Positions 12,259-51,699 of a stretch of 51,699 nt of DNA are shown here, one piece after another. The DNA comes from an uncultured Fusobacteriaceae bacterium (lineage in GTDB: Bacteria > Fusobacteriota > Fusobacteriia > Fusobacteriales > Fusobacteriaceae), in assembly GCA_947038515.1 (NCBI GenBank), contig CAMQWJ010000011.1:1-51699 (forward strand), in the 5' to 3' direction. The translations under genes and the position numbers were made by a program. The notes under the pieces were generated by a model. The model was not told the DNA's origin. It saw only the letters and a list, made by a program, of their open reading frames with translations, and did not search any database. Position 1 is the first letter of the stretch. Every line of letters begins with the position of its first letter.

Positions 12259-12323
12259 AGAGTTGATTTCCAGAAAAATCAAATAGTTATGAATACTAAA
12301 GTGAAAAAAGAAGGGGCTATTTT

Positions 12324-30793: not shown

Positions 30794-30801
30794 ATTCCCC
30801 C

Positions 30802-31035: not shown

Positions 31036-31036
31036 C

Positions 31037-32337: not shown

Positions 32338-32342
32338 TTAAA

Positions 32343-34643: not shown

Positions 34644-34923
34644 TTTTATCCAAAAGATTTAGAAGAAAACAACTTAAAGCTCCTGATAAAAAAATACCCA
34701 CAAGACCTTGTGTTAGAAGTGGGAGTATTTCAATATATTTATTAATAACTGGGTAGAATCCTGGTTCTGGTATATTTATTAGCACCAGTATTGATACCAA
34801 TACAAAAATATTGCAGTACCAAGCTATTAAAGTTCTTAGTTTGTGTGAAGTTGACATTATAATTCCAGTAAATACTAATATTGCCAATATTATTAAAAAT
34901 ATAATTACTATTCCTTTTATCAT
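34624..34923 (-). CDS. Small membrane protein before traG (99 aa)
   Basis: Three predicted transmembrane helices (residues ~4-24, ~33-52 and ~65-90). It has an AAAAGGAG site and overlaps the start of traG by 20 bases. Probably a transfer-complex accessory; family not recognised. Confidence 0.6.
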   Translation of the reverse strand: MIKGIVIIFLIILAILVFTGIIMSTSHKLRTLIAWYCNIFVLVSILVLINIPEPGFYPVINKYIEILPLLTQGLVGIFLSGALSCFLLNLLDKNEDIKE

Positions 34924-34937
34924 TTTAGTTCTCCTTT

Positions 34938-36569: not shown

Positions 36570-36678
36570 TTTTGTACTCTTCAAACTCTTTATTATCTAA
36601 ATCCTCTTCTTTAATTCCATCTTCATAAGTAACTATTCCTTTAGCTTTTTTAAAATCTTCTATTTCTTTAAGTGTCAT
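36562..36678 (-). CDS. Small acidic protein upstream of the ArdC gene (38 aa)
   Basis: ATG at 36678 with AAGGAG before it; reads MTLKEIEDFKKAKG, then an acidic stretch, and stops inside the ArdC start. The coupling and acidity suggest a leader or small partner of the ArdC-like protein. No family recognised. Confidence 0.45.
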   Translation of the reverse strand: MTLKEIEDFKKAKGIVTYEDGIKEEDLDNKEFEEYKND

Positions 36679-36738
36679 CTAAAATCTCCTTATCTTCCTT
36701 AGTTCTTTGTTAGAAATACGAATGTAACCATATTTCAT
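36679..36738 (-). pseudogene. Relic of the resolvase 5' end
   Basis: Translates MKYGYIRISNKEL and soon stops. The first nine residues equal those of the serine recombinase at 14535, and the four-base spacing to the tail gene upstream is the same as at 14530/14535. The block 36679-36802 is therefore a copy of the zeta-2/resolvase junction. Confidence 0.8.
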
Positions 36739-36742
36739 ATAT

Positions 36743-36901
36743 CTACCTTCCCTTCCCTTTAGAGTCTAATTCTTTTTGTTTCTTTAATGATTTTAAAAGT
36801 GGGTTTTCCACTTTTGAATTAGTTGTTTGTTCATTTTTTAATTCTTTCCAAACTTTTTCCACTTCTTCTTTTATTTTTTCAGATTTCATTTGTTCTTTCA
36901 A
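36743..36901 (-). CDS. 52-aa protein consisting mainly of the shared tail
   Basis: TTG start at 36901 with AAAGGAG six bases before it; an in-frame ATG follows at 36889. About 28 charged residues precede VENPLLKSLKKQKELDSKG, ending KGR. It is either a remnant of a larger tailed protein whose catalytic part was lost, or a small secreted protein. Its end is joined to a resolvase 5' relic, showing the tail was copied from a zeta-2-like locus. Confidence 0.6.
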   Translation of the reverse strand: MKEQMKSEKIKEEVEKVWKELKNEQTTNSKVENPLLKSLKKQKELDSKGKGR

Positions 36902-36913
36902 TTCTTTCTCCTT

Positions 36914-37309
36914 TTAGTTATTTACAATTTCATATAATTCTTTTTCTTTTAATTTGTTATAAATTTCATCTAATTCGATTATATTTTTATCCTTTAATTT
37001 TTTTTCTATTTCTGGTTTTAAAAATAAAATTTCTGATTTTTTTTCTTCTATCTTTAATCGAATTAGAATTATTTCAATTTTTGAAATTTTAAACTTTTTT
37101 AAAGTATTTTTATCTTTTGAAGAATCTAAAACTAAAATTTCTCTTATTTTTTCATTTTTAAAATTAATTTTTTCAATTAACATATTTAATAAAGAAAATA
37201 AAGTATAAATTAATAATATTAGTAGAATTACTAATAATAATAAGGCAATAATATATGTAGAACCATATATTATTTTGTCCATTATTTCTTGATACATTTT
37301 CTTCCCCAC
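36914..37309 (-). CDS. Membrane protein of the transfer region (131 aa)
   Basis: One N-terminal transmembrane helix (residues ~14-38, very Leu/Ile-rich) followed by a Lys/Glu helical cytosolic part. It lies between trbL and the tail gene in the leftward series. No family recognised. Confidence 0.55.
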   Translation of the reverse strand: MGKKMYQEIMDKIIYGSTYIIALLLLVILLILLIYTLFSLLNMLIEKINFKNEKIREILVLDSSKDKNTLKKFKISKIEIILIRLKIEEKKSEILFLKPEIEKKLKDKNIIELDEIYNKLKEKELYEIVNN

Positions 37310-37321
37310 CTTTTAAACATA

Positions 37322-37357
37322 AACTTACTAATCAAAAGTTTTTTTGATTAGTAAGTT
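37322..37357. terminator. Hairpin after trbL and AAAAT pentamer run
   Basis: 16-bp perfect arms (37322-37337 with 37342-37357) around a four-base loop. Directly beside it, at about 37357-37390, lies a run of the pentamer attttattttatttt that includes the trbL stop codon; such runs are length-variable. Confidence 0.7.
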
Positions 37358-37383
37358 ATTATTTTATTTTATTTTATTTTATT

Positions 37384-38310
37384 TTATTTTTTTCCTTTTG
37401 AGGCATTTTTCATTTTTTCCCCTCCATCGCCTCCACTTTTCATCTCTCCAATAACTTTTCCGACATCTTGTTTTACTTGTTGAGCCATACTAGAAGCTTT
37501 ACTACCTGCTGCACCTAAAACAGCCAGTCCTACTACATCATTATCACTAGCAGAACCACTAGTGAAAGAATTAGCCATACTAGAAGCTTTTGTTAAAAGG
37601 AACATCATACCAGCTAAAACAGCTACATAACTAATAGCATTTGTTGGTGTAACTTCTTTTGCTCCATTTATCAAGATACCTGTCCCCACCAATGGTTTAG
37701 TCATTGTTTGTAATACAAATTTTCCTATCAATGTTACTATCATTATTTTTATATTTTGAGAAATAATTAAGTTAAAAACTTTATCCCCCATAAAACTAGT
37801 AAATTTAAGCATTTTAAATGGAATTAAAATAATTGCTAAATTTACTAGCAAATAATATTCTAAATAGGCTAAAAATATCATTAAAGCCATAAATACCAAA
37901 ACAATTGCCCCAAATGCCCATATTATTATATTGAGATATGTTTTTGGAGAGAACCCCTTTACTAAATCCCATATTTTTTGTAATTGTGATAATCCATCCT
38001 CTATTATCGCACTCGGACCAACAGCCTGTACTGTCCCACCTAAAGCAATATCTACAAATTGTAAAAATGTATCGTTTATTTGTTTTGTTATTTCTTGATA
38101 ATTTTGGATTGCAAAAAACAACCAAAAGTAAGTAACTAATTTCCAAAAAACAATATTCATTGGTTCATCTTCTGGTTTTCTTTTAACTAATGACCATAAT
38201 ATTTCTATTGTTAACAAAGATACCAATAATATTAATGCAGTTGGTCTTAAGTTTTTGCTTATTGCTATAAAATTCAATTCTAGTTCACTCATTACTGTTG
38301 TTAAATCCAT
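37384..38310 (-). CDS. trbL: TrbL/VirB6 inner-membrane channel protein
   Basis: A 308-aa polytopic protein with five to six hydrophobic segments between residues ~20 and 240. LVNLAIILIPFKMLKFTSFMGDKV and the Gly/Ser/Ala-rich hydrophilic C-terminus (SSMANSFTSGSASDN) are typical of TrbL/VirB6. It forms part of the inner-membrane pore. A terminator-like hairpin precedes it at 38332. Confidence 0.88.
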   Translation of the reverse strand: MDLTTVMSELELNFIAISKNLRPTALILLVSLLTIEILWSLVKRKPEDEPMNIVFWKLVTYFWLFFAIQNYQEITKQINDTFLQFVDIALGGTVQAVGPSAIIEDGLSQLQKIWDLVKGFSPKTYLNIIIWAFGAIVLVFMALMIFLAYLEYYLLVNLAIILIPFKMLKFTSFMGDKVFNLIISQNIKIMIVTLIGKFVLQTMTKPLVGTGILINGAKEVTPTNAISYVAVLAGMMFLLTKASSMANSFTSGSASDNDVVGLAVLGAAGSKASSMAQQVKQDVGKVIGEMKSGGDGGEKMKNASKGKK

Positions 38311-38331
38311 ATTTCTCCTTTTTTAGTAAAT

Positions 38332-38365
38332 AAAAAAACCTTAGAAATTAATCTAAGGTTTTTTT
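38332..38365. terminator. Terminator/attenuator between the lipoprotein gene and trbL
   Basis: AAAAAAACCTTAGA pairs with TCTAAGGTTTTTTT around a six-base loop; functional in both directions. It could reduce expression of the downstream half of the transfer operon. Confidence 0.75.
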
Positions 38366-38416
38366 ATTTCAAGTATTTTTTCCAAATATTATTTGGATTG
38401 TTAATAATACAAAGAC

Positions 38417-38716
38417 TTAATAATTTCTTCTTGGAATTGTTCTTGGAGTATTGGTTTTTTTAACCCTCATTCTTAACGAACTATAAATCTCATCCCATTC
38501 ATAATGTTCTTTTTTTGCCTCAACATTTCCTTTTTTCATAGCTAACTCTAATTTAGCTTGTGTTTCTTCATACTCTTTTCTTGCTTTTTCATCATTTTTA
38601 TCAACCATTTTAAGAAGAACTTCTCTTTTATAGTCATAAGTTGTTAGCTCTACTTTTGGTGTTCCACAACCTACTAAAAATCCAAACGACAATAATAGCA
38701 ACACATTTTTTTTCAT
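38417..38716 (-). CDS. Lipoprotein of the transfer region (99 aa)
   Basis: ATG at 38716 with GGGGG before it. Signal peptide with lipobox LVGC (Cys at ~17), then a charged helical domain. In Trb operons the small lipoprotein after TrbJ is TrbK (entry exclusion) or TrbH; either fits by position, not by sequence. Its last ten residues TPRTIPRRNY are identical to the end of TrbJ because of a 50-bp direct repeat. Confidence 0.65.
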   Translation of the reverse strand: MKKNVLLLLSFGFLVGCGTPKVELTTYDYKREVLLKMVDKNDEKARKEYEETQAKLELAMKKGNVEAKKEHYEWDEIYSSLRMRVKKTNTPRTIPRRNY

Positions 38717-38760
38717 AAAATACCCCCTCTGTCTTTTTTTATATTGTACTACAAAAATGA

Positions 38761-38810
38761 TAATAATACAAAGACTTAATAATTTCTTCTTGGAATTGTT
38801 CTTGGAGTAT
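38761..38810. repeat. 50-bp direct repeat at two gene ends
   Basis: 38402-38451 and 38761-38810 are identical. Each covers the last ~33 coding bases and the stop codon of trbJ or of the lipoprotein gene. Recombination between them would delete the lipoprotein gene. Confidence 0.9.
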
Positions 38811-39507
38811 CTGTTTTTTCTGTTTTTATCCAATTTTTAAAGTCTTCATTATCTATTTCTTCCTGTGTTATTTTAGCTTGTTGTGTTAAAGCTAAAACTC
38901 TTAGATTTTCAGCAGTCAAGTTTTCTATTCTTGCCAACTTGTTATTTTGCATTTCTGCAATTTTTTTATTAGCAATGGCTATTTGTAAATTTCCTTTCGC
39001 CCCATCTGTTTTCCCCATGAAAGCTAATGATTTTGTTTCACTAGCAATATTTCCAGCAGTTTTTGAAGCCAATTTTAAAGAATCTTTGATGGTTGTATTT
39101 ACCTGCCCAGACATATTTTCTACTTCTCTCAAAAGTTGCATATTATCCATGTTTTTGTAATTTTCAAAGTTTTGGAAAGTACGGTCAAAATTCTGTTCAA
39201 ATTTTGCCGAATCACGAATTATGGATTTCGAGCCATCATGGATAGCTTGTAAATCCTTTAGAGTTTTTGCTAATTGTGCATTTTCTTCCCCAAGTAACAT
39301 TCCACCCCAATTTTCGAGATTGGTTAAATCATTTTGTAATTGCAAGGCTTGTGTAATTCTCATTTGAGTGGTTTCAACGGCATTTTTTGCTGTGTTAATC
39401 AAATTGGCATGAGAATTATACAACGCTTTTCCACTTTCATAAACTGCCATTGCTGGAAAAGTCGTAGCTCCCAAAAATAAAAATAATAAAACTATATTTT
39501 TTTTCAT
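38776..39507 (-). CDS. trbJ: TrbJ/VirB5 pilus-tip/assembly protein
   Basis: A 243-aa protein with a signal peptide ending PAMA (residue ~21), then long helices. NLENWGGMLLGEEN and AQLAKTLKDLQAI are typical of P-type TrbJ. It is exported to the periplasm and found at the pilus tip. The last ten residues and 15 bases beyond match the lipoprotein gene downstream. Confidence 0.85.
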   Translation of the reverse strand: MKKNIVLLFLFLGATTFPAMAVYESGKALYNSHANLINTAKNAVETTQMRITQALQLQNDLTNLENWGGMLLGEENAQLAKTLKDLQAIHDGSKSIIRDSAKFEQNFDRTFQNFENYKNMDNMQLLREVENMSGQVNTTIKDSLKLASKTAGNIASETKSLAFMGKTDGAKGNLQIAIANKKIAEMQNNKLARIENLTAENLRVLALTQQAKITQEEIDNEDFKNWIKTEKTDTPRTIPRRNY

Positions 39508-39572
39508 ATCACTACTCCTTAATAATTTTTTTTTACCTTAGATTATTCTATTTTCAATGTCCTAATTCCTAT

Positions 39573-40712
39573 TTATTTTTGATATGGCTCTAAAATTAAA
39601 TCTTTGTCTATCATTACACCAACCCCAAATCCAGGTCTAACAGTTAATGTCGGTTGTACATTTAAAATTTTATCCGTATATCTTATACCTACTGCCATCG
39701 CTTGTTCTCCTGCTCCTGCTCCTGCTTCTGATTGCCAACTATTGTCGTCGTCATCATTGCCGGTAAGAGCACTTCCAGCCCCTAGAACTGCTGATATTAG
39801 TACACTACCAATCACTTTATCCATGTGGTTATCTACTTTATCGTAGATACCACTTTGTCCAATGTCATCAACTGCTAACATTGTTCCTAAATTAATAGAT
39901 TTTTGGTTTGGAAATGTTATTCTATTAAATACAGCTTGTATTCTTTCTTGTCCGAAACTAATATTTGAATTATATTTTCCAAGTATTTTACTACCGCCTG
40001 GAATTAATAAAATTCTTCCAGTCTTAGAGTCGTAAACATCTTCTTTTATGAAGCCTGTTATCATACCAGGATTGTCAGAATTTACCCCTGTTTGCAAAGT
40101 AATTGGAATTACTGTTCCAGCTTTTACTTCATAAATACTTAAAGCATTTATTAGTGGATTTAAAAGTATAAAGTTATCTGTAGAAGCACTTTTTAAAAAT
40201 TCTGCTTTCTTTTTTTGTAAGTTCGGATCATCTTCCATGCCTGGAGGAATTAAATTTGAATATAGTTCGCTATTTTGATTTGCTACCTGTATTTGTTGTT
40301 TTTGTTCAAAATTAAATAAATTACTGGTATTGGGTTGAAGAAGAGCATTAGCTCTAATGATTTGTCTTCTTTCTTCATCGCTTAATTCAGCTTGTTTTGG
40401 TTCAAAACTTTCATAGTTTTGTTGATATTGTATTTCTGCTAAAACAGATTCTTCCTCTTGTTTTAATCTTTCTATTTCTTGTTTTACAATATTTTCTTCT
40501 GAAATTGCTATTAATTCTTTATGTTTTTGAGAAGTCGACATTACACTATCTATTTTCTCTTTAGATTTTTCTTTTTCTTTTTTTTCCCCACTAGAGAAAA
40601 TAAAAGGTATTGAAATTATAAGAAAGATAACCCCTAAGATAATTCCAATGTTTTTGTAATTAAAACTTCCATTGTTTGGCAGAATATCTTTTATTTTTTG
40701 GTTTACACTCAT
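39573..40712 (-). CDS. trbI: TrbI/VirB10 scaffold protein
   Basis: A 379-aa protein with one transmembrane helix near residues 23-40, a charged/Gln-rich periplasmic linker, and a C-terminal VirB10 beta domain (EVKAGTVIPITLQTGVNSDN, then SVLISAVLGAGSAL). It spans both membranes and links the ATPases to the outer core. The stop codon of trbG is adjacent. Confidence 0.93.
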   Translation of the reverse strand: MSVNQKIKDILPNNGSFNYKNIGIILGVIFLIISIPFIFSSGEKKEKEKSKEKIDSVMSTSQKHKELIAISEENIVKQEIERLKQEEESVLAEIQYQQNYESFEPKQAELSDEERRQIIRANALLQPNTSNLFNFEQKQQIQVANQNSELYSNLIPPGMEDDPNLQKKKAEFLKSASTDNFILLNPLINALSIYEVKAGTVIPITLQTGVNSDNPGMITGFIKEDVYDSKTGRILLIPGGSKILGKYNSNISFGQERIQAVFNRITFPNQKSINLGTMLAVDDIGQSGIYDKVDNHMDKVIGSVLISAVLGAGSALTGNDDDDNSWQSEAGAGAGEQAMAVGIRYTDKILNVQPTLTVRPGFGVGVMIDKDLILEPYQK

Positions 40713-40713
40713 A

Positions 40714-41466
40714 TTATCGTTTCCAATTTTTGTTAAATATCATTATTTGTTTTTTTCCCATAGCGAGTACTCCTTCTTTGAATACTCGATCAACTACTAT
40801 GACTTTTCTACCATTTTTTTTCATTTTAGTTCTTGTCATAACGAGAACTAATTTACCTTCTTTTTTTAAATAAAAAGAAGGTATATCTTTATCTTTTTCA
40901 GATAATTCTATTATCGTTTTGTCCCCATCGTCAAAAATGTTAGAAGGCGACCAAGAATAACTTTTTCGCCATTTGTATTTGAAGTTAAGTTCTTCTATGT
41001 TAGAGCTGTTTAATGATACTTCTTCATCTAATATTCTTTTTTGCTCTAACTGTAATGTTACTTCATCTTCTGGATAGATAAATTCTAAAACAGAGTTGTA
41101 ATATTTTTCATTTGATTTGGGAGCTACTAAAGTAAAAAAGTAATCTCTTATATTCGTAGTAATGAATAAAGAAGTTTTCAAATCATCTTCTTTAGGTTTA
41201 ATTATAAGTTGATTTCCAATCATTTTCGTTTCCCAAAACGGTTGATCTGCCACTGTAACTGACATTAATGATTCAGCTTTTCCAAAAATTATCGCTGTCC
41301 CATTTAAGGGTTTTGAATATATTTGATATATCTTATCAGGAAGATATACCTGTTTTTTATATTCTTTCGTTTTTGCTTCTTTTATTAAATCTATTTTTGT
41401 ATTTTTTCCAAAAGATAGACTTGAAATAATTAGCATAAATATTATTCCTGTTTTTTTTAAGTTCAT
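40714..41466 (-). CDS. trbG: TrbG/VirB9 outer-core protein
   Basis: A 250-aa protein with a signal peptide (residues ~1-20), the N-terminal IYSKPLNGTAIIFGKAESLMSV region and a C-terminal YKWRKSYSWSPSNIFDDGDKT beta domain as in VirB9. It forms the outer-membrane ring with TrbI. Confidence 0.92.
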   Translation of the reverse strand: MNLKKTGIIFMLIISSLSFGKNTKIDLIKEAKTKEYKKQVYLPDKIYQIYSKPLNGTAIIFGKAESLMSVTVADQPFWETKMIGNQLIIKPKEDDLKTSLFITTNIRDYFFTLVAPKSNEKYYNSVLEFIYPEDEVTLQLEQKRILDEEVSLNSSNIEELNFKYKWRKSYSWSPSNIFDDGDKTIIELSEKDKDIPSFYLKKEGKLVLVMTRTKMKKNGRKVIVVDRVFKEGVLAMGKKQIMIFNKNWKR

Positions 41467-41486
41467 TCTAATTTTTCTCCTTTTAT

Positions 41487-42170
41487 TTATAGCTTTTCTT
41501 TTATTTGAGTAAAATCTACTATTAACATTCCAAGAGGATTGAATAATAAGTGATTTTTTTCTTTGATTTCTACAAATTTAATTGTAAAAATCCCCATATA
41601 ATTTTCTTCTAATATAATTTTTCCATTTTTATCAGATGTTCTCTCAATCCATCTTATTTGATAAGAGTTATTTTCTAGTTTGATTCCTGTATTTTGGATT
41701 ACTTCTACTGTTTCTTTCAACTTTATTTTTTCTTTATATCCAGATTCAATTAAGTATCTGTCTATTTTAGCTGACGAACTTTGTGTTAAGAAACTCAAAA
41801 TTTCTTCAGTATTTTTTGAATATAGTTCAAGATTTGGGGTTAAGAACCTAGTTTTATTTATAAAGTTAAAAAGAAAATATACAATTTCTTCATCAGTAAC
41901 ATTTTTTCTTATATCTGTTCCAAGATTATTAGCTGTCCCTAAAACATTATAATTGTTTCCTTCTTTCTCTATAATATAAGTTTGAACTTTGTTGTTTGAG
42001 CTTATATTAATAATTCCAAAAACTAAAAAACAACTTATCAAGCATGAAGAAAAAGCTACTTTTCTCCAATTGTTTGAATTTATTTGCATATCAAGGAATT
42101 TATCTCTAGGTAATTTTTCTTTATTTGTTTGTAAAGCAATTTTATTTTTAATTTTCCAATTAAAAATCAT
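41487..42170 (-). CDS. trbF: TrbF/VirB8 inner-membrane protein
   Basis: 227 aa: a cytosolic tail, a transmembrane helix (residues ~38-57) and a periplasmic VirB8 domain (YQIRWIERTSDKNGK, then YMGIFTIKF). Its start overlaps the trbC stop by one base. Confidence 0.9.
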   Translation of the reverse strand: MIFNWKIKNKIALQTNKEKLPRDKFLDMQINSNNWRKVAFSSCLISCFLVFGIINISSNNKVQTYIIEKEGNNYNVLGTANNLGTDIRKNVTDEEIVYFLFNFINKTRFLTPNLELYSKNTEEILSFLTQSSSAKIDRYLIESGYKEKIKLKETVEVIQNTGIKLENNSYQIRWIERTSDKNGKIILEENYMGIFTIKFVEIKEKNHLLFNPLGMLIVDFTQIKEKL

Positions 42171-42478
42171 TAGAACATTACTCCACTAGTTAACCCTAAC
42201 CAGTCTGTAATTATTTCAGCTTTAAATATAACAAAAGACCCTATTACTGAATATAATCCTATCTTTAAAGAACCTTCTGGTCCTCTTCCAGTTATACCAA
42301 CTAAAATCATAGATACTAAACTTAAAATGAAACCGTATCTACCGATTTCTTTTGCAACATCAACAACTTTATCAAAAGTTGTTGCTATTCCCAGTCCCCC
42401 ATCTGATCCAAATGCACCTAAACTTAAAACCAAAAATGATAGTACCATCATTTTTTTCCTTCCATTTTTTCTTTCCAT
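42170..42478 (-). CDS. trbC: TrbC/VirB2 major pilin
   Basis: 102-aa prepilin with GGGAGGAG before its ATG. A signal peptide is followed by two hydrophobic helices split by GRGPEG, the pilin pattern. It would be processed by TraF (27778). It is the first gene of the leftward transfer operon; the promoter must lie at 42479-42600, next to the 41-bp recombination-site-like repeat. Confidence 0.88.
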   Translation of the reverse strand: MERKNGRKKMMVLSFLVLSLGAFGSDGGLGIATTFDKVVDVAKEIGRYGFILSLVSMILVGITGRGPEGSLKIGLYSVIGSFVIFKAEIITDWLGLTSGVMF

Positions 42479-42499
42479 TTAATTCTCCTCCCATAAATT

Positions 42500-42540
42500 T
42501 TTTTTAATGGTACTACTTTTAAAAATGTAGTTACCATTTA
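42500..42540. repeat. 41-bp inverted-repeat copy A (candidate recombinase site)
   Basis: Exactly the reverse complement of 47415-47455. Internally it has imperfect arms, GGTACTAC and GTAGTTACC, around a ~10-bp AT spacer, the look of a tyrosine-recombinase core site. It lies between trbC and a tyrosine recombinase gene. Confidence 0.85.
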
Positions 42541-42605
42541 ATTTCAATTTTATATAGATATATGTTAATATTTTTTAACAGAATACTAATACTGGAGGTT
42601 TGATT

Positions 42606-43195
42606 GTGAAAAAAAAAAAGAAGTTTATTTTTTACAAAAAAAAGATATTAAAAAAATAAGAGAATATCTCTTAAAAAAAGATTTAATTGTTATGTTATGT
42701 TTTATTAACATTGGCTTAAATACAGGTTTACGAGTTAGTGATTTATTAGAATTAAAATTTGAAGATTTGAATGATAATAGAATTTTGAGAATAATTGAAA
42801 TAAAAACGCAAAAAATTAAGCTGATAAAATTTAATACGATTTGTGTTAATAGTTTTGAAATACTAAAAAAATATTACATGAAAAAAGGGATTCCAGCAGA
42901 AGAATTTTTGTTCAAATCTTTAAATAGAGAATTTATAAAAAAAAGAATTTTCAAAAAAATAAGCTATTCTGGTATAAAAAAATATTTTACACTTTTAAAA
43001 AATGAACTTAAATTAGAGTATCCAATTGGGACACACTCTTTGAGAAAAACATTTGGAAAAAGAATTTATGAAAATGAAAGTGATCTAGGATTAGTTATGA
43101 AATTATTAAATCATAGTTCAGAAGGAGTTACTCTACGATATATTGGGATTGATGACGAGTTAATTATTAAATGCTATGATAATCTTATAATATAA
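42606..43195 (+). pseudogene. Tyrosine recombinase with out-of-frame start at an A11 tract
   Basis: GTG at 42606 has GGAGG seven bases before it but is followed by eleven A and then stops early. The recombinase frame begins right after the tract (EVYFLQKKDIKKIREYLL) and runs to 43195. The catalytic residues are visible: Arg in TGLRVSDLL, H-x-x-R in GTHSLRKT, His in LLNHSSEG and Tyr in RYIGI. One A more, or two fewer, would restore a ~197-aa XerC/Cre-like enzyme. A shorter in-frame ATG exists at 42692, without a ribosome-binding site. This could be phase variation, transcriptional slippage, inactivation or sequencing error. Confidence 0.75.
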
Positions 43196-43197
43196 AC

Positions 43198-43241
43198 AAA
43201 AAAAGAAAGATACTTTCAGAATGAAGGTATCTTTCTTTTTG
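43198..43241. terminator. Bidirectional terminator between convergent genes
   Basis: An A-rich arm with GAAAGATAC pairs with GTATCTTTC and a T run. It separates the recombinase from the traD-like gene. A small palindrome TTGACA/TGTCAA lies at 43249-43264. Confidence 0.8.
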
Positions 43242-43269
43242 CGTTAGATTGACAGAAATGTCAATTTCT

Positions 43270-43728
43270 TTAATTTTTAGAAATATTTTTTAACACCAAG
43301 TATTCCTCAAAAGTTAGATTTTCTAAAGAATTTTTATTAAATTCTTTTTTTATTATAACCATTAGGTCTAAATTTTTTTGGTTATAAATTTTTAATAGTT
43401 CCATTATCTGTTCTTTAGAGATTTCTATAATTTTTTTTCTTTTTTCAAAGAAAATTTTACCCTTATTTTTTAAAATTTCTTTTTGATCTAATGTTAATTT
43501 TTTAAAATTTATTAAGAAACCTATTAAAGTATCTTTTTCTTCATCTTCTAAATTTAACATTTCAAAAAGAACCCCTAACTGTATCAATTTATGAACTCTC
43601 TTTTTTCTTTCTTGATTTTTTGTATAATTTTCTTCTTTTTTATTAATTTTATTGATTTTATTATTTAAAATTTTAAACTTATTTTTTTTTTCTTCCAATT
43701 CTTTTAAAAGATTTTCTTTATCTTTCAT
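43270..43728 (-). CDS. TraD-family (PF06412-like) conjugation accessory protein
   Basis: 152 aa with a coiled-coil N-terminus and the segment RKKRVHKLIQLGVLFEML, which matches the conserved RxxRxxxLIQLGxL signature of small TraD/TraC relaxosome proteins in Ti-type and other mobilisation regions. It overlaps the 3' end of the relaxase gene by 11 bases. Likely role: accessory DNA-binding in the relaxosome. Confidence 0.7.
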   Translation of the reverse strand: MKDKENLLKELEEKKNKFKILNNKINKINKKEENYTKNQERKKRVHKLIQLGVLFEMLNLEDEEKDTLIGFLINFKKLTLDQKEILKNKGKIFFEKRKKIIEISKEQIMELLKIYNQKNLDLMVIIKKEFNKNSLENLTFEEYLVLKNISKN

Positions 43729-46012
43729 TATCTTCTTCTTCTCCTTTATATCCCATTGATTTTATCTGTTTTCCTGTGTGAAGTTTTTTCAAATTCACAC
43801 TATTATTTGAATTTTTAAATTTAGACTGTAAAAAATCTACTTTTAAAACTTTTAATTTTTTTATTATGTTCATTTTATCTGAAAGTTGTAGAATTTTATT
43901 TTCTACAACTTTCAAGGAGTCATTAGTTTCAGTTAGCAGCTCCTTTAATTTCACTATTTCTTCTAATTTTATTTCTTTCTTTTCTTTAATTTCATCTTTA
44001 GGTTTTAGTTCTCTATTTTTTATATTTTCTTCTTTTACTATTTTCATTTTTTGTAAATTTTCAATAATATTTAATTCTAACAATTTGTAAGAATTATTAT
44101 TATTTAGTAATAGTTTTTTAAAGTATTCTATTTCTTTAGGTTCTGTAGCCTCTTTTAGTTTTTCTTTCAATTCTTTTTCTATTATTTGAATTTGAACTTT
44201 ATCTTCTTTTCCTTTTTCTATTGTTGCAAAAAGATTTTTTAATATTTCTTTATTTTTTTCTAATTTATTAGAAAGATCAAAAGATAGTATTTTATTTTGT
44301 AGCTCTTTTCTTATAATATCTACAATTGGTTTTAGCTCATCTTTTTTCTCTTTTTGATTCTTTATCTCATTAAATAAACTATCTAAATAATCTTTCTTTT
44401 CATCTTTTGAGAGTTCTAATTTAAAAATATTATTTTCAATAGTTCCAATGTCAATTAGTTCTATCTTCCCCCATCGCTCATTCAGAATATTAAGAGATTT
44501 ATCATAAGATTTTCTTAAAACATCCTCTTTAGCTACTATTTTTCCTAAAAATTTATCTGAATTAAATTCTTCAAGTTCCCTATTTAATTCAGATATCTTT
44601 ATTTTTTCAATATCTGTCATAAAACTCTTTTTAGTAATATTTTCTAATTCTTTTTCTATCTTAGAAATTCTACCATTTGATACAGTGTCAGAAGCAATTT
44701 TTCTAATGTTTTCTTCTAACATATTGTTTTTTATATATTTAATTTTAGTTATTGTTTTATCAACAATAACTAAATTATTTACAAGTAAATCTAAGAGTTC
44801 AATTTTCTTAGGTTGAACACTTTGATTTTCTTCTTTTATTATTTTTATTTTTTGTATATTTTCAATAATGTTCAGTTCTGAAATTCTGTAAGAATTATTA
44901 TTATTTTGTAATAGTTTTTTAAAGTATTCTATTTCTTTAGGCTCTGTAGCCTCTTTTAGTTTTTCTTTCAGCTCTTTTTCTATTATTTGAATTTGAACTT
45001 TATCTTCTTTTCCTTTTTCTATTGTTGCAAAAAGATTTTTTAATATTTCTTTATTTTTTTCTAATTTATTAGAAAAATCAAAAGGTAATATTCTCTCTAT
45101 TTCCTCTGTATGTTCTCTTCTTATTTCTCTAATAATATTATACTTTTCTTCATTTCCTATTAGTGAATTAAACAGTTCTTTTTTTGCGATTAGATTTTCT
45201 TCTGTAAAGTTTTTCATTTTAAAAGAATAAACTTCATCTTTTAATTTTTTTATTTCTTTTGATATTTTAAAAAGCTCTAGCTTTTCAAGTTCAACTAAAG
45301 TTTTTGTATTATCATTACTATATAGTAAATAGCCTTCAATATTAATTGGTACTCTATCTAGTTTTTCAGCTAATATAAAATCCCCTTTTTTTATTGCTTC
45401 TTTTCTTTGATCCTTCAAGCTATCAGAATTAACTCTTTCACTTATATTGTTTTTTTCTAATGATTTATTTATTATATTTTCAAACTGTTTTCTAATTATG
45501 ATTAATTTTTCTTTTTTATTCCAGGTATCATCTTTCTGTGTTCCACCAAGTTCCTTTTTATTTGCATTATATCTCTTAAAAAAATCTTGATAGTTTCTAT
45601 TTATTCCATCTTGTTTTCTTGTTGAAAACAGTATATGGGCATGAATATTTCCTACTCCATCTTCATTAAAACTTTTATGAAGAGAGTAAGAGCATGGGAA
45701 GTCATTACCTATTATTTCATTTATAAATTCTTGTGTTATTTTTATATTTTCTTCATCATTTAATTCGTTCGGAAGTGTTAAAGTCATTTGTCTTGCTTTT
45801 CTTCTATTAGCACCTTCAAATTCATCAGCACATTTCCAAAAAAATCTTGGGTTATTCTCTGCAAATTTAGGAATATTTAAAGCTTCTTTGTGAATTAATT
45901 CTTCACTTTTTTTACCATTTTTATATTTTCCTTCTCGAAAATCATACAAAAATTTACCTTCAACATTTCTGTCTGCTTTTACATTATCCATTTCTAATCT
46001 GAAAAAAGCCAT
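43718..46012 (-). CDS. mobA: MobA/MobL-family (MOBQ) relaxase
   Basis: 764 aa; ATG at 46012 follows TAAGGAGG. The N-terminal ~230 residues are a MobA/MobL domain: FRLEMDNVKADRN, then GANRRKARQMTLTLPNEL and GNIHAHILFSTRK with the metal-binding His-x-His. It nicks at oriT, stays bound to the 5' end and is led through the channel. The C-terminal ~500 residues are coiled coil and contain an ~85-residue segment present twice (267 codons apart). The last 35 residues are basic and end EEDNER, compatible with a secretion signal. Confidence 0.88.
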   Translation of the reverse strand: MAFFRLEMDNVKADRNVEGKFLYDFREGKYKNGKKSEELIHKEALNIPKFAENNPRFFWKCADEFEGANRRKARQMTLTLPNELNDEENIKITQEFINEIIGNDFPCSYSLHKSFNEDGVGNIHAHILFSTRKQDGINRNYQDFFKRYNANKKELGGTQKDDTWNKKEKLIIIRKQFENIINKSLEKNNISERVNSDSLKDQRKEAIKKGDFILAEKLDRVPINIEGYLLYSNDNTKTLVELEKLELFKISKEIKKLKDEVYSFKMKNFTEENLIAKKELFNSLIGNEEKYNIIREIRREHTEEIERILPFDFSNKLEKNKEILKNLFATIEKGKEDKVQIQIIEKELKEKLKEATEPKEIEYFKKLLQNNNNSYRISELNIIENIQKIKIIKEENQSVQPKKIELLDLLVNNLVIVDKTITKIKYIKNNMLEENIRKIASDTVSNGRISKIEKELENITKKSFMTDIEKIKISELNRELEEFNSDKFLGKIVAKEDVLRKSYDKSLNILNERWGKIELIDIGTIENNIFKLELSKDEKKDYLDSLFNEIKNQKEKKDELKPIVDIIRKELQNKILSFDLSNKLEKNKEILKNLFATIEKGKEDKVQIQIIEKELKEKLKEATEPKEIEYFKKLLLNNNNSYKLLELNIIENLQKMKIVKEENIKNRELKPKDEIKEKKEIKLEEIVKLKELLTETNDSLKVVENKILQLSDKMNIIKKLKVLKVDFLQSKFKNSNNSVNLKKLHTGKQIKSMGYKGEEEDNER
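44041..45093. repeat. Two copies of a ~245-bp repeat inside the relaxase gene
   Basis: About 44041-44285 and 44849-45093 are nearly identical with an offset of 801 bp (267 codons), both encoding NKLEKNKEILKNLFATIEKG onward. Recombination between them would remove 267 codons in frame. Confidence 0.85.
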
Positions 46013-46039
46013 CTTTAACACCTCCTTATTTTCTGTCTT

Positions 46040-46258
46040 TACACAAATTCCCAAGTGTGGGAAGTCCAAGTTTTAATATAATTAAAATTTGGTTGTGAAG
46101 GGTTGTTGTTTTCGTCCTTAGGACACACCTTAGTGTCCCCCTTTTTACGAGTAAAAAGCACGGAGTATCTAAAGTTTAATGAAATTAAAATTTAGATACT
46201 TGTAACCGTGCCTTCCTTAACACAGTAATTTTTGCTATTCGCAAAAATATTGGTTGAG
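46040..46258. other. oriT: Putative origin of transfer (oriT)
   Basis: Directly upstream of the relaxase start lies a chain of inverted repeats: TTCCCA/TGGGAA (~46047), GGACAC/GTGTCC (~46120-46137), CTTTTTAC/GTAAAAAG (~46140-46157), a long cruciform opening GCACGG and closing CCGTGC (~46158-46210) with TATCTAAA/TTTAGATA inside, and ATTTTTGC/GCAAAAAT (~46229-46250). No gene fits here. The nic site cannot be named from sequence alone. Confidence 0.65.
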
Positions 46259-46261
46259 GCT

Positions 46262-46688
46262 GGTTTTTAATTCTTTTTTATTTACTTCATACTATAATAA
46301 TCTATTCTACTTGTCAATATTAATTATTCTTAAATTCAATTTATATTAAAATTGAATTTAAGATATCTTTCTACCCATTATTACTGGTAGAAACAAATGG
46401 GTTTGATTTTTTTTAATAGATCTTTTTTTATTTGATTACTTATTTTATAGCTCATATAAATATAATTTTTATTTTTTCATCAAAAGTAATAATAGTGTTT
46501 TAAGGCTCTTAAACTCATTGTAAAAATTTTTGTTTTTTATTTAATTATTTTATTGTTGAACTATGTAAGAGTGCCTTATAATTGATATAAGAAATTTTTA
46601 GGTGTGTTTTTTAGTTGTAATAGATGTATTTTTTTAGTTGTTTGAATCTTTTTAAAATTAACTATAAATATGATATTAAATAAAAAAA
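46262..46688. other. Gene-free AT-rich interval
   Basis: No coding frame stands out. It holds an inverted repeat with 14-bp arms (CTTAAATTCAATTT and complement, 46329-46362) and a CCCATT/AATGGG pair followed by T residues near 46374-46415, possibly terminators or accessory transfer signals. Confidence 0.5.
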
Positions 46689-46735
46689 TTAAATTTTAGT
46701 TTTTAGTTTCCCATTTTTATAATTTCCTTCAAATT

Positions 46736-47131
46736 CTAATTGACCATTGTCTCTAATTCTAATTGACCATTGTCAGAATACTGTTTATATATTCCCCATA
46801 TTTTACCATTTTTATAATTTAATTCTATCTTTAACTTACCATTTTTATTATAAAATTTAACTACTCCTTCTCGTATACCATTTTTATAATTTATTTCCAT
46901 CTTTGGCTTACCACTCTCATCATAGGCTTTAGCTACCCCTTCTAGTTTACCGTATTTATAATTTTCTTCGGTTTTTAATTGACCATTCTCATAATAACTT
47001 TTATATATTCCATTATAAGGTGTTGTACTGTCTATTTCAAACTTTACTCCATTTCGTTCCACTAAATTATCTACTTTTTTTCCACAACCTATTAACAATA
47101 GCAAGCATAATAATGCTATTAACTTTTTCAT
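46736..47131 (-). CDS. MORN-2 (YwqK-like) lipoprotein, truncated by a 23-bp duplication
   Basis: A 131-aa protein with a signal peptide and lipobox LIGC (Cys at 16), followed by four to five MORN-2 repeats (YYENGQLKTEENYKYGKLEG and so on). The 23-bp segment acaatggtcaattagaatta+gag is duplicated in tandem at the 3' end, shifting the frame into an early stop. Without it the frame would run on through LEFEGNYKNGKLKTKI to a stop at 46689. It resembles the MORN array of the ArdC-like protein; surface or entry-exclusion roles are speculative. Confidence 0.75.
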   Translation of the reverse strand: MKKLIALLCLLLLIGCGKKVDNLVERNGVKFEIDSTTPYNGIYKSYYENGQLKTEENYKYGKLEGVAKAYDESGKPKMEINYKNGIREGVVKFYNKNGKLKIELNYKNGKIWGIYKQYSDNGQLELETMVN

Positions 47132-47414
47132 TTATAACTCCTTTATCTTTTTATATAATTTTTTAGATTTGTTTTTATTTTTCAATCTTTTTTATTTTTT
47201 GTTAATTTATAATAAAAACAAAAAATATTATATACTGTTATTTAATATCCCAAAACTATTATTAGTATAATAAATAATACAGGTATTTGTCAATGAATAT
47301 TACTTAAATAGTTAAATTTTAATTTTATTCAAATAATTATTTAATATTTAATAAAAAAAGAATAAAAACAATTTTGTTTGTTTTTTCTTTGTTTTTATGA
47401 TATTATTCTTGGTA

Positions 47415-47455
47415 TAAATGGTAACTACATTTTTAAAAGTAGTACCATTAAAAAA
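47415..47455. repeat. 41-bp inverted-repeat copy B (candidate recombinase site)
   Basis: The exact reverse complement of 42500-42540. The 4.9-kb segment between the two carries the tyrosine recombinase, traD-like gene, relaxase, oriT and MORN lipoprotein. The flanks 47132-47414 are AT-rich and I see no gene in them. Confidence 0.85.
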
Positions 47456-48065
47456 TAACTCTAAATTAATTATAATATAAATTGTGTCTAATTCCTTTTT
47501 TAAGGCAACTCTTGTAACAACTTAAACATATAGTCCAGTTAAGTATGGAAAATGATTTCTAGGACTATGTAGGAGCTTTAAAACGTTGTTTCAAGTGTTG
47601 ATTTATATTGTGGTTTTAATATTATAGCTGAAAGAACTTAATTTAGGTTCTTTTTTTTATTTAGGCAAATAAAGCTCTTATTTCGGTTTTAAGGCAGATG
47701 TTCCTGTTCGCTCGAACTTGTTTAGGCTAGTGTGCGGAAAATGATTTTTAGGGCTATATAAGGAGTTAAAAACATTGTTTCAAGTGTGTTGTTATGTTGC
47801 GGTTTTAATATGGTCTTTAAAATCACCTTTATTTGCGAAATTTTTTATAAGGGGATTAGAGAGAATTTTTTAATAATTAAAAAAATTAGTTCTACTGTAA
47901 ACAAACTTAATTCTTTAGTAGATGATTTAATGGACACAAAAAAATATGAAATTGTGAAAATTGAAAAATTAGCTCAACAAATTTATACTGAAAAATTAAA
48001 TGATTGGGTTTAAGGAAAATATGTTATATAATGATTTATAAACTAAAATGTGTTACATTTCTATC

Positions 48066-48094
48066 GGACAGATTCGCTATCTGTCCCTTTTTTT
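48066..48094 (+). terminator. Rho-independent terminator
   Basis: GGACAGAT (48066-48073) pairs perfectly with ATCTGTCC (48079-48086), with a seven-T run after it. It may end a transcript from the repeat region. Confidence 0.85.
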
Positions 48095-48394
48095 ACTCAA
48101 AATTAATAAAAAGCTCTAGTTTTGATTTTAAAGAGCTTTTTATTTATAGGTCGTCTATTACGTTAAGAAAATCGTTAAAATGATTTTTAGAACTATATAA
48201 GAGCTTTTAAATGATATTTTAAATGTGATCTTATAATCTATTTTATAGAATCAGAAAAAACAAACCATTTAGTTCTTTTTTCTTTAATTTTAAAATTTTA
48301 AAAAATATAATCTTTCTTTTCTCTTTAATTCTTTTCTCTTTAAAGATTGGGAATTCAAAATTACATTGGTAACATTGGGAAAATTTGACACTAC

Positions 48395-48450
48395 AGGGTA
48401 CTAGTTGGGACTTATTAGGGTACTAGTTGGGACTCGTTAGGGTACTACAT
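48395..48450 (+). repeat. Iterons of a third, defunct origin
   Basis: AGGGTACTAGTTGGGACT begins at 48395 and 48417 with a 22-bp period, with a partial third unit at 48439. It is followed by a promoter whose spacer contains the inverse AGTACCCC. The layout is the same as at origin 2 but with a different iteron sequence, so this belonged to another replicon. Confidence 0.75.
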
Positions 48451-48454
48451 AGAT

Positions 48455-48483
48455 TTGACAAGTACCCCTTAGTGCGGGATTAT
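48455..48483 (+). promoter_or_regulatory. Promoter of the fossil third rep gene
   Basis: TTGACA, 17 bases, GATTAT. The first spacer bases, agtacccc, are the inverse of the iteron core, suggesting Rep autoregulation, as with TTGACAAGTAGCC at 49409. Confidence 0.6.
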
Positions 48484-48513
48484 CATTTTATTAATATATA
48501 TAAGGGGGTATTG

Positions 48514-48678
48514 ATGGATATTGTTAAATATAATAATAAAAAGAATGAAGTAAATTTTAATGGATATACTGAAAAAGAAATATTAGGATATATAGTTTTA
48601 GAAAAAGGTTTTTCACTTAGATATAGAAATACATGTGCAGGATTAAAACCATATTTTGTGTTGGATATTAAGGAGTGA
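48514..48678 (+). pseudogene. Chimera: rep N-terminus fused to the end of the 157-aa gene
   Basis: 54 codons. The first ~22 residues (MDIVKYNNKKNEVNF) resemble the start of the Rep at 49474 (MSTEIVKYHNDMNKVNL). From LGYIVLEKGFSLRYRN onward it equals the C-terminus of the protein at 50942. A deletion has joined a third rep gene to a copy of the antitoxin-cluster gene; unlikely to work as an initiator. Confidence 0.8.
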
Positions 48679-48685
48679 TGAAAAA

Positions 48686-48760
48686 ATGAAAAAAGATATT
48701 AGAATAATTGAAAGAATTGCGATTGATAGTGAATATTTAAGTATGGAAAATGATTTCTAG
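48686..48760 (+). pseudogene. Truncated third copy of the 87-aa antitoxin-like gene
   Basis: MKKDIRIIERIAIDSEY is identical to the start of the gene at 51423. The reading then runs into a copy of the ggaaaatgatttctag repeat and stops after 24 codons. Confidence 0.8.
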
Positions 48761-48986
48761 GACTATGTAGAAGCTTTAAAACGTTGTTTCAATTATTGAT
48801 TTATATTGTGGTTTTAATATGGTCTTTAAAATTACCTTTATTTGCTAATTTTTTTATAAGGGGATTAGAGAGAATTTTTTTAATAATTAAAAAAATAGTT
48901 CTTCTCTTTAATTCTTTAATTCTTTAATTCTTTAAAGATTGCAATGTTTTTTTTCCATTGCAAACATTAGAGAAAGAGGACTTACG

Positions 48987-49060
48987 AGGCTACCAAATGA
49001 AGAAGATAAGGCTACCAAATGAAGAAGATAAGGCTACCAAATGAAGAAGATAAGGCTACC
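48987..49060 (+). repeat. Iteron array of origin 2 (oriV2)
   Basis: AGGCTACC begins at 48987, 49009, 49031 and 49053, an exact 22-bp period with the spacer aaatgaagaagata. Single AAGGCTACC-like copies follow near 49142, 49246 and 49371, and an inverted GTAGCCT overlaps the rep promoter at 49417. The interval 48761-49473 has no gene and is AT-rich between the iterons. Confidence 0.9.
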
Positions 49061-49408
49061 ATTTTTATTGTTGTAACCTTATAAAAAAAAGCAACCTTAA
49101 ACCTAATAATTACAATGATTATTTGAGTTTAAAAAAATGATAAGGCTACCAAAAAAATTGAAGTTACTTAATAAAAAAATAAAAAGTTAATTTTTTTTAT
49201 ACTATATTCATTTTTACCTTGTAAATATTAATGAAAAAAAATGATAAGGCTACTAGTTTTACAAGAGGTTACTTATAGTAAAATAGAACAAAAAGGTTCT
49301 AATTGTTGAGTTTAAATTTAAAATGTATTTTTTGTTGAAAACATTGGAGTTTTTATTTTTTGTTTTTTATAAGGCTACCATTTGTAATTTTATAGAGCTA
49401 CTTCATTG

Positions 49409-49437
49409 TTGACAAGTAGCCTATAGTATCGTATTAT
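49409..49437 (+). promoter_or_regulatory. Promoter of rep-2 with inverse iteron
   Basis: TTGACA (49409-49414), 17 bases, TATTAT (49432-49437). The spacer begins agtagcct, the inverted iteron core, so Rep could repress its own gene. Confidence 0.75.
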
Positions 49438-49473
49438 ATATATAGTAAATATAATTTTAGTTTGGAGGAAAAA

Positions 49474-50679
49474 ATGTCAACAGAAATTGTAAAGTATCAT
49501 AATGATATGAATAAAGTGAATTTAGGGAATTTTTTAGTAAAAGAACTAGATTTATTTTTTTCACTTTGTTTTAAATTGAAGGAAAGTGGAGAAAATGAAA
49601 TAAAAATTTCTTTTGCTGATATTCAAAACTTGATAGGAGAGGGGAAAAACTTTCCTAGAATAAAATTATATGTCGATAATTTGAATAAAAAATTGGCACA
49701 ATTAAATTATCAGATAGAAATAAGCCCAAAAATTTTTGAAAGATTTGTGCTTTTTACTAACTTTACTAGTAACTATAATGATAATACATTAACAATTAAG
49801 GTTAATGATAAGTTTAATTATATTTTAAACAATGTAATTGGAAATTTTACAAAATTTGATTTGATAGAATTTGTGAGTTTAAAAAGCACTTATTCTAAAA
49901 ATATGTTTAAAATATTAAAACAATGGGAGTTCCTACCTGCTAAACAAAAGATTTTCACAATAGAAGAATTTAGGGAAATGCTATTAGTTCCACAAACATA
50001 CAGAATGTCGATTATAGATATAAAGGTTTTAAGTCCTATTAAAGAAGAAGTTTCAAAATATTTCAAAGATTTAAAAATAGAAAAAATTAAAACTGGAAAA
50101 AGGATTACTTCAATAAAATTTAGTTGGGGAAGAAAAAAAGAAGATATAATTGAAGGAAAAACAATTGAGATAGTCTTATCTGAAAAATTAAATAAAGTAA
50201 TTGTAAAAGCTAAAAAAAATCTTTATATTAATAAATTTTTAAAAGATGAGCATATTAAAGAATTATTAGAAATATTTGAAGAAAAACAATTGATTCTTGG
50301 TTTAGAATATGCTTATAATAATATTAATGAAGATTTTAAAAAAATAATATATTTGGAAAATTCAATTAAAAAAGGAATAGATAATCAAAAAATAAAAATA
50401 ACATCAACTAAAAGTGTAGAAATAGAAAAAAAAGAAATTATTCAAACCTGTATAATTACTAAAGTAAGCCCAGAAGAGTATAATCAAATGTATTTTGAGT
50501 ATTTACAAAAAAATGAGTTAAAAGATAATAAAGTATCAAAAATAACTTTCCAAAAAATGAACGAAAATAAATTTGAAATAATCAATGAGGTTAGCCAAGA
50601 AGAACAAGAAAAAAAGAAAAGAAAAAAAGAAATTGAGATACAAATGGAAATGATGAAAAAAGAATTAGAAGGGTTATAA
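49474..50679 (+). CDS. Replication initiator 2, Rep_3 family
   Basis: 401 aa; ATG at 49474 with GGAGG five bases before it. The start EIVKYHNDMNKVN, then LNKKLAQLNYQIEI, FKILKQWEF and FTIEEFREMLLVPQTYRMSIIDIKVLSPIKEEV, is the standard two-winged-helix Rep_3 arrangement. Last ~130 residues are charged. It would bind the AGGCTACC iterons upstream. It is not closely similar to the initiator at 1544, so the plasmid has two independent origins, suggesting a past plasmid fusion. Confidence 0.9.
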   Translation: MSTEIVKYHNDMNKVNLGNFLVKELDLFFSLCFKLKESGENEIKISFADIQNLIGEGKNFPRIKLYVDNLNKKLAQLNYQIEISPKIFERFVLFTNFTSNYNDNTLTIKVNDKFNYILNNVIGNFTKFDLIEFVSLKSTYSKNMFKILKQWEFLPAKQKIFTIEEFREMLLVPQTYRMSIIDIKVLSPIKEEVSKYFKDLKIEKIKTGKRITSIKFSWGRKKEDIIEGKTIEIVLSEKLNKVIVKAKKNLYINKFLKDEHIKELLEIFEEKQLILGLEYAYNNINEDFKKIIYLENSIKKGIDNQKIKITSTKSVEIEKKEIIQTCIITKVSPEEYNQMYFEYLQKNELKDNKVSKITFQKMNENKFEIINEVSQEEQEKKKRKKEIEIQMEMMKKELEGL

Positions 50680-50732
50680 GGGTAGATATTGTCTGTTATT
50701 AAAAATTATAGAAAATAAGGAGTGATGAAAAA

Positions 50733-50945
50733 ATGAAAAAAGATACTAGAATAATTGAAAGAATTGCGATTGATAGTGAACTGGAAGAAGAAACTAAGAA
50801 AAGATTAAGAACAACAAAACTTAGATTAAGAGAAATATATAATTTACTTCCTGAAATGACAGTATGGGAAGAATACCAAAAATTAATAAAAGAATGTAAT
50901 GATGTAATGATAAAAGCTAATAATATTGTAAATGGTATCTTATGA
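50733..50945 (+). CDS. Antitoxin-like protein, copy A with 17-residue deletion (70 aa)
   Basis: AAGGAG before the ATG. It matches the 87-aa protein at 51423 except for a deletion of 17 residues after IAIDSE. The second half is helical (RLREIYNLLPEMTVWEEYQKL). The stop overlaps the start of the 157-aa gene (ATGA), the same coupling as between copy B and zeta-1. Confidence 0.65.
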   Translation: MKKDTRIIERIAIDSELEEETKKRLRTTKLRLREIYNLLPEMTVWEEYQKLIKECNDVMIKANNIVNGIL

Positions 50946-51415
50946 AATTTAAAGAGTTAGAAGAATTAATAGTTGAAGAAGCTTTGGAAAAAATTTATAA
51001 GATAAAAAGAACTGGAATTAAAGGAGAAGGTATTTCTTTTAAAATTAATGATATTTTATGTTATGGAAACGATGGATTTTTTGGATATTTATTTTTAAAA
51101 AATGGTAAAACTTTTAAAATTATATACGACTGGCATTTTAAAGATATTGGAGATTATGATGGACTTATGAAGTTATCAGCAGATGCTCGAAAAGAAGAAC
51201 TTGGAGTTTATTATAAAACTTTAGATAATAGAGAAAATATAATGGAAGAAGTTATAAAAAAAATGGTAGCAAATAAAAATTTTACAGAAATATTTTTTAA
51301 TGATGGTGGTATGGAAACATTAGGATATGTAGTTTTAGAAAAAGGTTTTTCACTTAAATATAGAAATACATGTGCAGGATTAAAACCATATTTTGTGTTG
51401 GATATTAAGGAGTGA
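50942..51415 (+). CDS. Unknown protein in the antitoxin-zeta cluster (157 aa)
   Basis: The first 14 residues (MKFKELEELIVEEA) are identical to the start of zeta-1, but the rest is unrelated: a strand-rich central part (GISFKINDILCYG, then GKTFKIIYDWHF) and a C-terminus duplicated in the chimera at 48514. It occupies the toxin position behind copy A, so it may be a second toxin, an immunity factor or a passenger. No family recognised. AAGGAG at its end serves copy B. Confidence 0.6.
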   Translation: MKFKELEELIVEEALEKIYKIKRTGIKGEGISFKINDILCYGNDGFFGYLFLKNGKTFKIIYDWHFKDIGDYDGLMKLSADARKEELGVYYKTLDNRENIMEEVIKKMVANKNFTEIFFNDGGMETLGYVVLEKGFSLKYRNTCAGLKPYFVLDIKE

Positions 51416-51422
51416 TGAAAAA

Positions 51423-51686
51423 ATGAAAAAAGATATTAGAATAATTGAAAGAATTGCTATTGATAGTGAATATATTTGTGTTAAAGAAGGAAAAATAATA
51501 TTTATGATTGTTGATGGTAATTTAGGAGAAGAAACTAAGAAAAGATTAAGAACAACAAAACTTAGATTAAGAGAAATATATAATTTACTTCCTGAAATGA
51601 CAGTATGGGAAGAATACCAAAAATTAATAAAAGAATGTAATGATGTAATGATAAAAGCTAATAATATTGTAAATGGTATCTTATGA
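51423..51686 (+). CDS. Probable antitoxin of zeta-1, copy B (87 aa)
   Basis: Full-length version: a beta-rich start (RIIERIAIDSEYICVKEGKI) and a helical second half. On the closed circle its stop codon overlaps the ATG of zeta-1 at position 39 (ATGA), giving the antitoxin-zeta order. Not recognisably epsilon or PezA by sequence. Confidence 0.65.
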   Translation: MKKDIRIIERIAIDSEYICVKEGKIIFMIVDGNLGEETKKRLRTTKLRLREIYNLLPEMTVWEEYQKLIKECNDVMIKANNIVNGIL

Positions 51687-51699
51687 AATTTAAAGAGTT

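Follow-up and report, generated by a model that had tools for sequence, protein, structure and literature searches.

A predicted inversion switch carrying the mobilisation module in front of the conjugation operon of a Fusobacteriaceae plasmid

The 51,699-nt contig C11 of an uncultured Fusobacteriaceae bacterium (assembly GCA_947038515.1; positions 1-51,699, the entire contig, referred to as the window) was analysed with a focus on a 4.9-kb segment (42500-47455) that is bounded by inverted recombination sites and adjoins a type IV secretion system (T4SS) operon (28334-42478, minus strand). This segment is probably a site-specific inversion switch that provides phase-variable promoter control of the conjugation machinery, with the mobilisation module serving as the invertible DNA and the sequenced orientation representing the OFF state. 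In the proposed mechanism, a tyrosine recombinase would recombine two inverted 33-bp sites and thereby flip the segment. A candidate promoter lies immediately internal to the right site; as sequenced, it is directed away from the T4SS operon, which would correspond to OFF. Following inversion, it would be placed directly upstream of trbC, the operon's first gene, and transcription from it would cross the site and enter the operon (ON). The invertible DNA would be the mobilisation module itself, composed of the origin of transfer (oriT), the relaxase, and traD. We infer that the window plasmid inverts, that its recombinase allele acts despite a frame problem at a tract of 11 adenines (A11), and that the trb operon is transcribed from the promoter. 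In the promoter and site comparisons with related elements, the window is represented by the 42500-47455 segment.

The first-pass annotation of this DNA had reported perfect inverted copies at the two ends of the segment, and this was borne out. The left site (42500-42540, minus strand; 33-bp core 42506-42538) and the right site (47415-47455, plus strand; 33-bp core 47417-47449) are identical at 41 of 41 positions, inverted, share an asymmetric core, and are the sole two copies in the genome. Their 29-bp core gave just two matches in the 1.78-Mb genome, even when three mismatches were allowed, and the 41-bp pair was recovered by self-BLAST with E = 6e-14, while the remaining long inverted repeats of the region are imperfect (mostly 70-77% matched, 89% at best). 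Each 41-mer holds a 33-bp imperfect palindrome composed of 13-bp arms around a 7-bp asymmetric core (13-7-13), a type of site also seen near related recombinases. The window site reads AATGGTAACTACA-TTTTTAA-AAGTAGTACCATT, and related 33-bp sites were found in the genome G008 (AATACTACATATTAGTATAAAATATGTAGTATT), in Cetobacterium (AATGGTAGATATTATCAYARAATATGTAGCATT), in KCOM1330 (GCTACTACATATTATGCTATTATATGTAGTATC), and in a chromosomal location (AATGGTTAATATAAGATATTTATATTAACCATT). The common site length and the AATGGTA/CTACAT arms were picked out by eye; a pattern restricted to the window arms yielded no sites among the relatives, and detection succeeded only after the 33-bp 13-7-13 alignment. 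Excision of a mobile element was considered and rejected, because inverted sites yield inversion rather than excision.

The closest homologues of the recombinase (49% identity) are located in the chromosomes of three Fusobacteriaceae genomes, namely G030, which also carries the F. varium Fv113-g1 plasmids, G028, and G027, where they lie inside a cassette of approximately 785 bp with inverted sites. When G028 and G027 were compared, the flanks were collinear (77-91% identity) and the 805-bp recombinase cassette ran in the opposite direction, its breakpoints coinciding with the sites; in G030 and G027, the orientation is the same over 7.1 kb. Since the cassette is flipped at its sites between collinear flanks, recombinases of this family appear, from these genome comparisons, to invert DNA between such sites in nature. 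The three chromosomal cassettes (L060 in G030, L062 in G028, and L063 in G027, about 9890-12985) carry inverted 33-bp sites and an outward promoter. They stand upstream of an operon encoding two FadA adhesins, and their orientation differs between species, so that the cassette is likely an adhesin phase-variation switch. Because the site-promoter-recombinase unit thus also precedes the FadA operon in Fusobacterium chromosomes, these observations point to a general phase-variation unit in Fusobacteriaceae. Searches for further loci were less productive: the single recombinase protein returned nothing, the recombinase alignment returned mainly distant recombinases (31-43% identity) that were uninformative on the switch, apart from pointing to two Fusobacteriaceae metagenome-assembled genomes, and the search of other families of the order gave no homologue at E <= 1e-18.

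The same layout recurs on related plasmids, as determined by a scan for palindromic inverted site pairs combined with a directed search upstream of trbC. In a control with a single shuffle per locus, no pair was found in inverted orientation; the scan itself also returned inverted palindromic repeats of a different kind, for example the operator-like families of L081 and L129. In F. polymorphum pKKCOM1330A (sites 12230/17914) and in G019, a Fusobacterium sp. metagenome-assembled genome (sites 10697/14169), the pair surrounds the relaxase and traD genes and the recombinase lies just outside, whereas in F. varium pFV113-g1-2 (sites 93/6502), whose pair likewise encloses relaxase and traD, the recombinase is far away; the sister plasmid pFV113-g1-1 carries the same two sites. 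In G004 (sites about 2569/10690), the segment extends from the relaxase to the recombinase, a layout shared with the window, and G022 (7152/10604) is also arranged like the window. Further pairs are found in G051 (2138/9855) and in an F. hwasookii plasmid (about 8908/9653); the F. hwasookii pair surrounds the recombinase alone. In every one of these plasmids, one site is situated 17-76 bp upstream of the trbC start, and the pairs mostly enclose the relaxase module; trbC was identified by Pfam, except in G022 and G004, where the open reading frame before virB8 was taken. Among plasmids with the recombinase outside the pair, the mobilisation module of KCOM1330 is oriented opposite to that of G019 and G051. 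For KCOM1330, no near-full relative other than itself was found, and a hint of an earlier inversion from arm-swap analysis is not strong enough to count as evidence. In the window, the trbC/virB2-like pilin gene (42170-42478, minus strand) starts 22 bp from the left site and is the first gene of the leftward operon, followed by virB8, virB9, virB10, and others. Its PF04956 match (E=1.6e-4) is under the curated cut-off, and the next genes match VirB8, CagX/VirB9, and TrbI. Also with respect to site distribution, a near-identical recombinase site was observed in G007 (L302, G007:C7:44818-44840; L299, G007:C8:18138-18160) on a contig separate from the recombinase and about 1.4 kb upstream of a relaxase, possibly reflecting one recombinase acting on two replicons.

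Promoters were scored in a position-aware manner at both ends of every segment and compared with shuffles; a simple consensus scan had given no excess over shuffles. Every segment bears a predicted outward promoter with a 17-bp spacer at one end, and the signal is clear in most relatives. The window candidate (TTGTTT-17-TATTAT with an extended TG; 47378-47406, plus strand) lies at the end away from trbC, next to the MORN lipoprotein gene and oriT, and its position matches that in the relatives, with a positional shuffle p = 0.016 in the 42-45 bp interval. In the window, four other plasmids, and the three chromosomal cassettes, 42-44 bp separate the end of the -10 box from the outer edge of the site. 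At this distance, we identified TTGCAA/TATAAT in KCOM1330, TTGATA/TATAAT in G019, TTGAAA/TATAAT in G022, TTGATT/TATTAT in F. hwasookii, and TTGATT/TATCAT or TATTAT in the chromosomal cassettes, with shuffle p values at 42-45 bp of 0.001-0.006 for the four plasmid relatives and 0.002-0.003 for the cassettes. Other plasmids have their promoter at 27-33 bp, i.e., G004 (TTGACT/TATAAT), pFV113-g1-2 (TTGATT/TATAAT), and G051 (TTTACA/TATATT), all with p <0.04 at 27-46 bp. None of the opposite segment ends reached p < 0.15, and no promoter was detected by this scoring at the trbC end of the window segment. In KCOM1330 and F. hwasookii, the promoter is directed at trbC, corresponding to ON, and it points away in the other six (window, G019, G022, G004, pFV113-g1-2, and G051), corresponding to OFF. 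The earlier suggestion that inversion could switch promoters near trbC is supported by the outward promoter at one segment end, whose spacing from the site is nearly constant, and by a site just upstream of trbC each time.

Several observations weigh against the inversion-switch reading. The second orientation of the window plasmid was found neither in its own genome nor in a PLSDB search for near-identical plasmids. The window promoter is weak and unremarkable by score alone (p = 0.61), the promoter model was a generic sigma-70 matrix without training on Fusobacteriaceae, and the choice of the 42-45 bp interval followed inspection of the relatives. Regarding the layout, the search upstream of trbC showed one site only in G008 and in the Cetobacterium plasmid p2, Fn12230 contains ambiguous remnants and no clear pair, and the pairs in G022 and G051 are more degenerate than the rest. 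Finally, the assembly shows a broken frame for the recombinase. The inversion proposed at first pass is well backed by the recurrent layout and by the oppositely oriented homologous cassettes, but not by a second orientation of the plasmid or by an intact recombinase frame.

The recombinase gene (42606-43195, plus strand; PF00589, 1.2e-24) encodes a small tyrosine recombinase of about 195 aa. The GTG at 42606, preceded by a good Shine-Dalgarno sequence (GGAGG), does lie 66 bp inside the left repeat, as had been annotated, but it is not in frame with the gene, because the A11 tract immediately after it (42609-42619, plus strand) throws the frame off by one base; A12 would restore it. The open frame (42620-43195) corresponds to a 191-aa catalytic-domain protein with a complete catalytic set (R38, K62/K65, H139, R142, H165, and Y174), in which all residues are invariant among 15 relatives except Y174, which is nearly so. 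To yield an intact recombinase, the gene would require an additional A, slippage, or initiation at an internal codon such as ATG 42692; the break may stem from an assembly error, a frameshift of recent origin, or a gate operated by slippage. Several relatives' recombinases begin with a similar lysine-rich stretch in frame, and long A runs are a cause of polymerase slippage. It would also be conceivable, though quite unlikely, that the segment is the relic of a once-active switch locked OFF by this frame break: no in-frame ATG, GTG, or TTG exists upstream of 42692, and the start at that position would drop the conserved N-terminus. Against such a relic, the gene is otherwise undamaged and retains every catalytic residue, the sites are identical over 41 bp, and a single-base difference within an A11 run could easily revert or could be an assembly error. 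With respect to classification, the match to the NCBIfam Fim-type tyrosine invertase model NF007371 (E=0.0024, 17.4 bits) falls below the curated cut-off of 222, and for this reason the protein was not filed as a Fim-type invertase.

In an alternative explanation, inversion does occur, but its role is to reorient oriT with respect to the T4SS and replication genes, altering the order of gene entry into the recipient, with the promoter being incidental. The presence of oriT and the relaxase inside the segment in most plasmid cases fits this explanation, and a change in transfer polarity, as raised at first pass, would follow mechanically from the oriT flip and would reverse the gene entry order, but shows no sign here of being selected. 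We regard this explanation as unlikely: the F. hwasookii and chromosomal cassettes contain the recombinase only, without oriT, and yet keep the promoter and their position upstream of trbC or the adhesin operon, and one site always adjoins trbC. Since these versions have no oriT in the segment, the promoter, rather than oriT, is the common element of the segments compared here. Very unlikely, in our assessment, are sites for plasmid multimer resolution (cer/rfsF-like), whose inverted second copy would be an accident of little function. Related small recombinases are indeed common on plasmids of many bacteria, and the single clear sites of the Cetobacterium plasmid and G008 would be in line with such a role; however, resolution needs one site per monomer, whereas inverted pairs recur with the second copy upstream of trbC, and homologues reside in chromosomes with inverted cassettes. 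Building on the preferred reading of promoter control, a broader and more tentative proposal is that Fusobacteriaceae plasmids use oriT-relaxase-traD as an invertible promoter cassette, so that a single flip would determine oriT orientation along with T4SS transcription; where the recombinase lies outside the pair, the OFF promoter would face the recombinase, and the A11 tract of the window could form a second, slippage-based gate.

When compared to known systems, the window switch would work like the fim-type and the Bacteroidales and Clostridioides difficile invertible promoters. The fim switch of E. coli (FimB/FimE acting on fimS; PMC5763102) likewise combines a tyrosine recombinase of approximately 200 aa, inverted sites, and a promoter in invertible DNA for ON/OFF control of a surface-structure operon; in contrast, fimS comprises 314 bp without genes, while the window segment is a 4.9-kb mobilisation module and its target a conjugation T4SS. 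The invertible promoters of Bacteroidales integrative and conjugative elements (PMC8748976) and the RecV switches of C. difficile (PMC7446863) are also inverted by tyrosine recombinases, the former on conjugative elements as in the window, but their targets are resistance or glycan genes, flagella, and toxins, and the matched passages of PMC8748976 do not describe control of transfer genes. The PilV shufflon of IncI plasmids such as R64 and TP114 (PMC9045228) represents tyrosine-recombinase inversion on a conjugative plasmid with an effect on conjugation; it exchanges pilus-adhesin C-termini, whereas the window would flip a promoter together with the oriT/relaxase module. Inverton group 145 of gut bacteria (PMC11892184) places invertons and a tyrosine recombinase near mobilisation genes (relaxase/MobC), but is tied to hsdS restriction specificity subunits and was taken to indicate horizontal spread, not transfer control. 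In the open literature, which leaves aside most subscription journals, neither inversion control of a conjugation T4SS operon nor a relaxase/oriT module as invertible DNA was found. Conjugation is costly, and donors are exposed to pilus-targeting phages. With a reversible DNA switch preceding the transfer operon, the plasmid population would be divided into few transmitters and many silent carriers, and, if this is true, cultures with such plasmids could be mostly OFF.

The remaining gene content of the segment corresponds to what had been annotated, on the basis of Pfam matches, a lipobox, and an oriT-like hairpin. Besides the recombinase, the segment encodes, all on the minus strand, a traD-like protein (43270-43728; PF06412, 2.4e-6), a MOBQ (MobA/MobL) relaxase (43718-46069; PF03389, 5.7e-21; NF041496 MobQ, 1.6e-20, under its cut-off), and a MORN-repeat lipoprotein (46736-47131; MORN_2, PF07661, 1.2e-22, with lipobox). 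The relaxase gene contains an internal 283-bp direct repeat (44024-44306 and 44825-45107, 92% identical) representing a duplicated C-terminal region. Just upstream of the relaxase, an oriT-like hairpin (GCACGGTTAC-stem-loop-CCGTGC; 46158-46211, minus strand) was recognised by the motif GCACGCTTAC and the hairpin found upstream of related relaxases.

The full contig, whose ends overlap by 55 bp in self-comparison, encodes a Rep3 replication protein, ParA-type proteins, and a VirB/Trb-type T4SS, and is for these reasons most likely a circular Rep3 conjugative plasmid. Its relatives point to Fusobacteriaceae. The T4SS genes lie on a single strand and match VirB2/8/9/10, TrbL/VirB6, VirD4, VirB11, and VirB4, and the predicted gene set of a MOBQ conjugative plasmid is complete (MobA_MobL, T4SS-DNA_transf, VirB4/VirB11-like, VirB6/8/9/10, and Rep3). 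The interval that separates the right site from the Rep3 gene contains four noncoding repeats of 68-180 nt (47539, 47728, 48177, and 48737; region 47539-48926) and 22-bp iteron-like repeats (48987-49061); in the present orientation, the outward promoter reads toward these elements. An Rfam scan of 42300-51699 gave no match. Elsewhere, the plasmid carries defence-type genes, namely an AbiLi-like ATPase with a partner gene (10226-12258) and a 1311-aa nSTAND NTPase (15738-19673) for which PADLOC gave no match, as well as two zeta-toxin-like genes (39-890 and 13643-14530) and a Fic-family gene (24638-25399).
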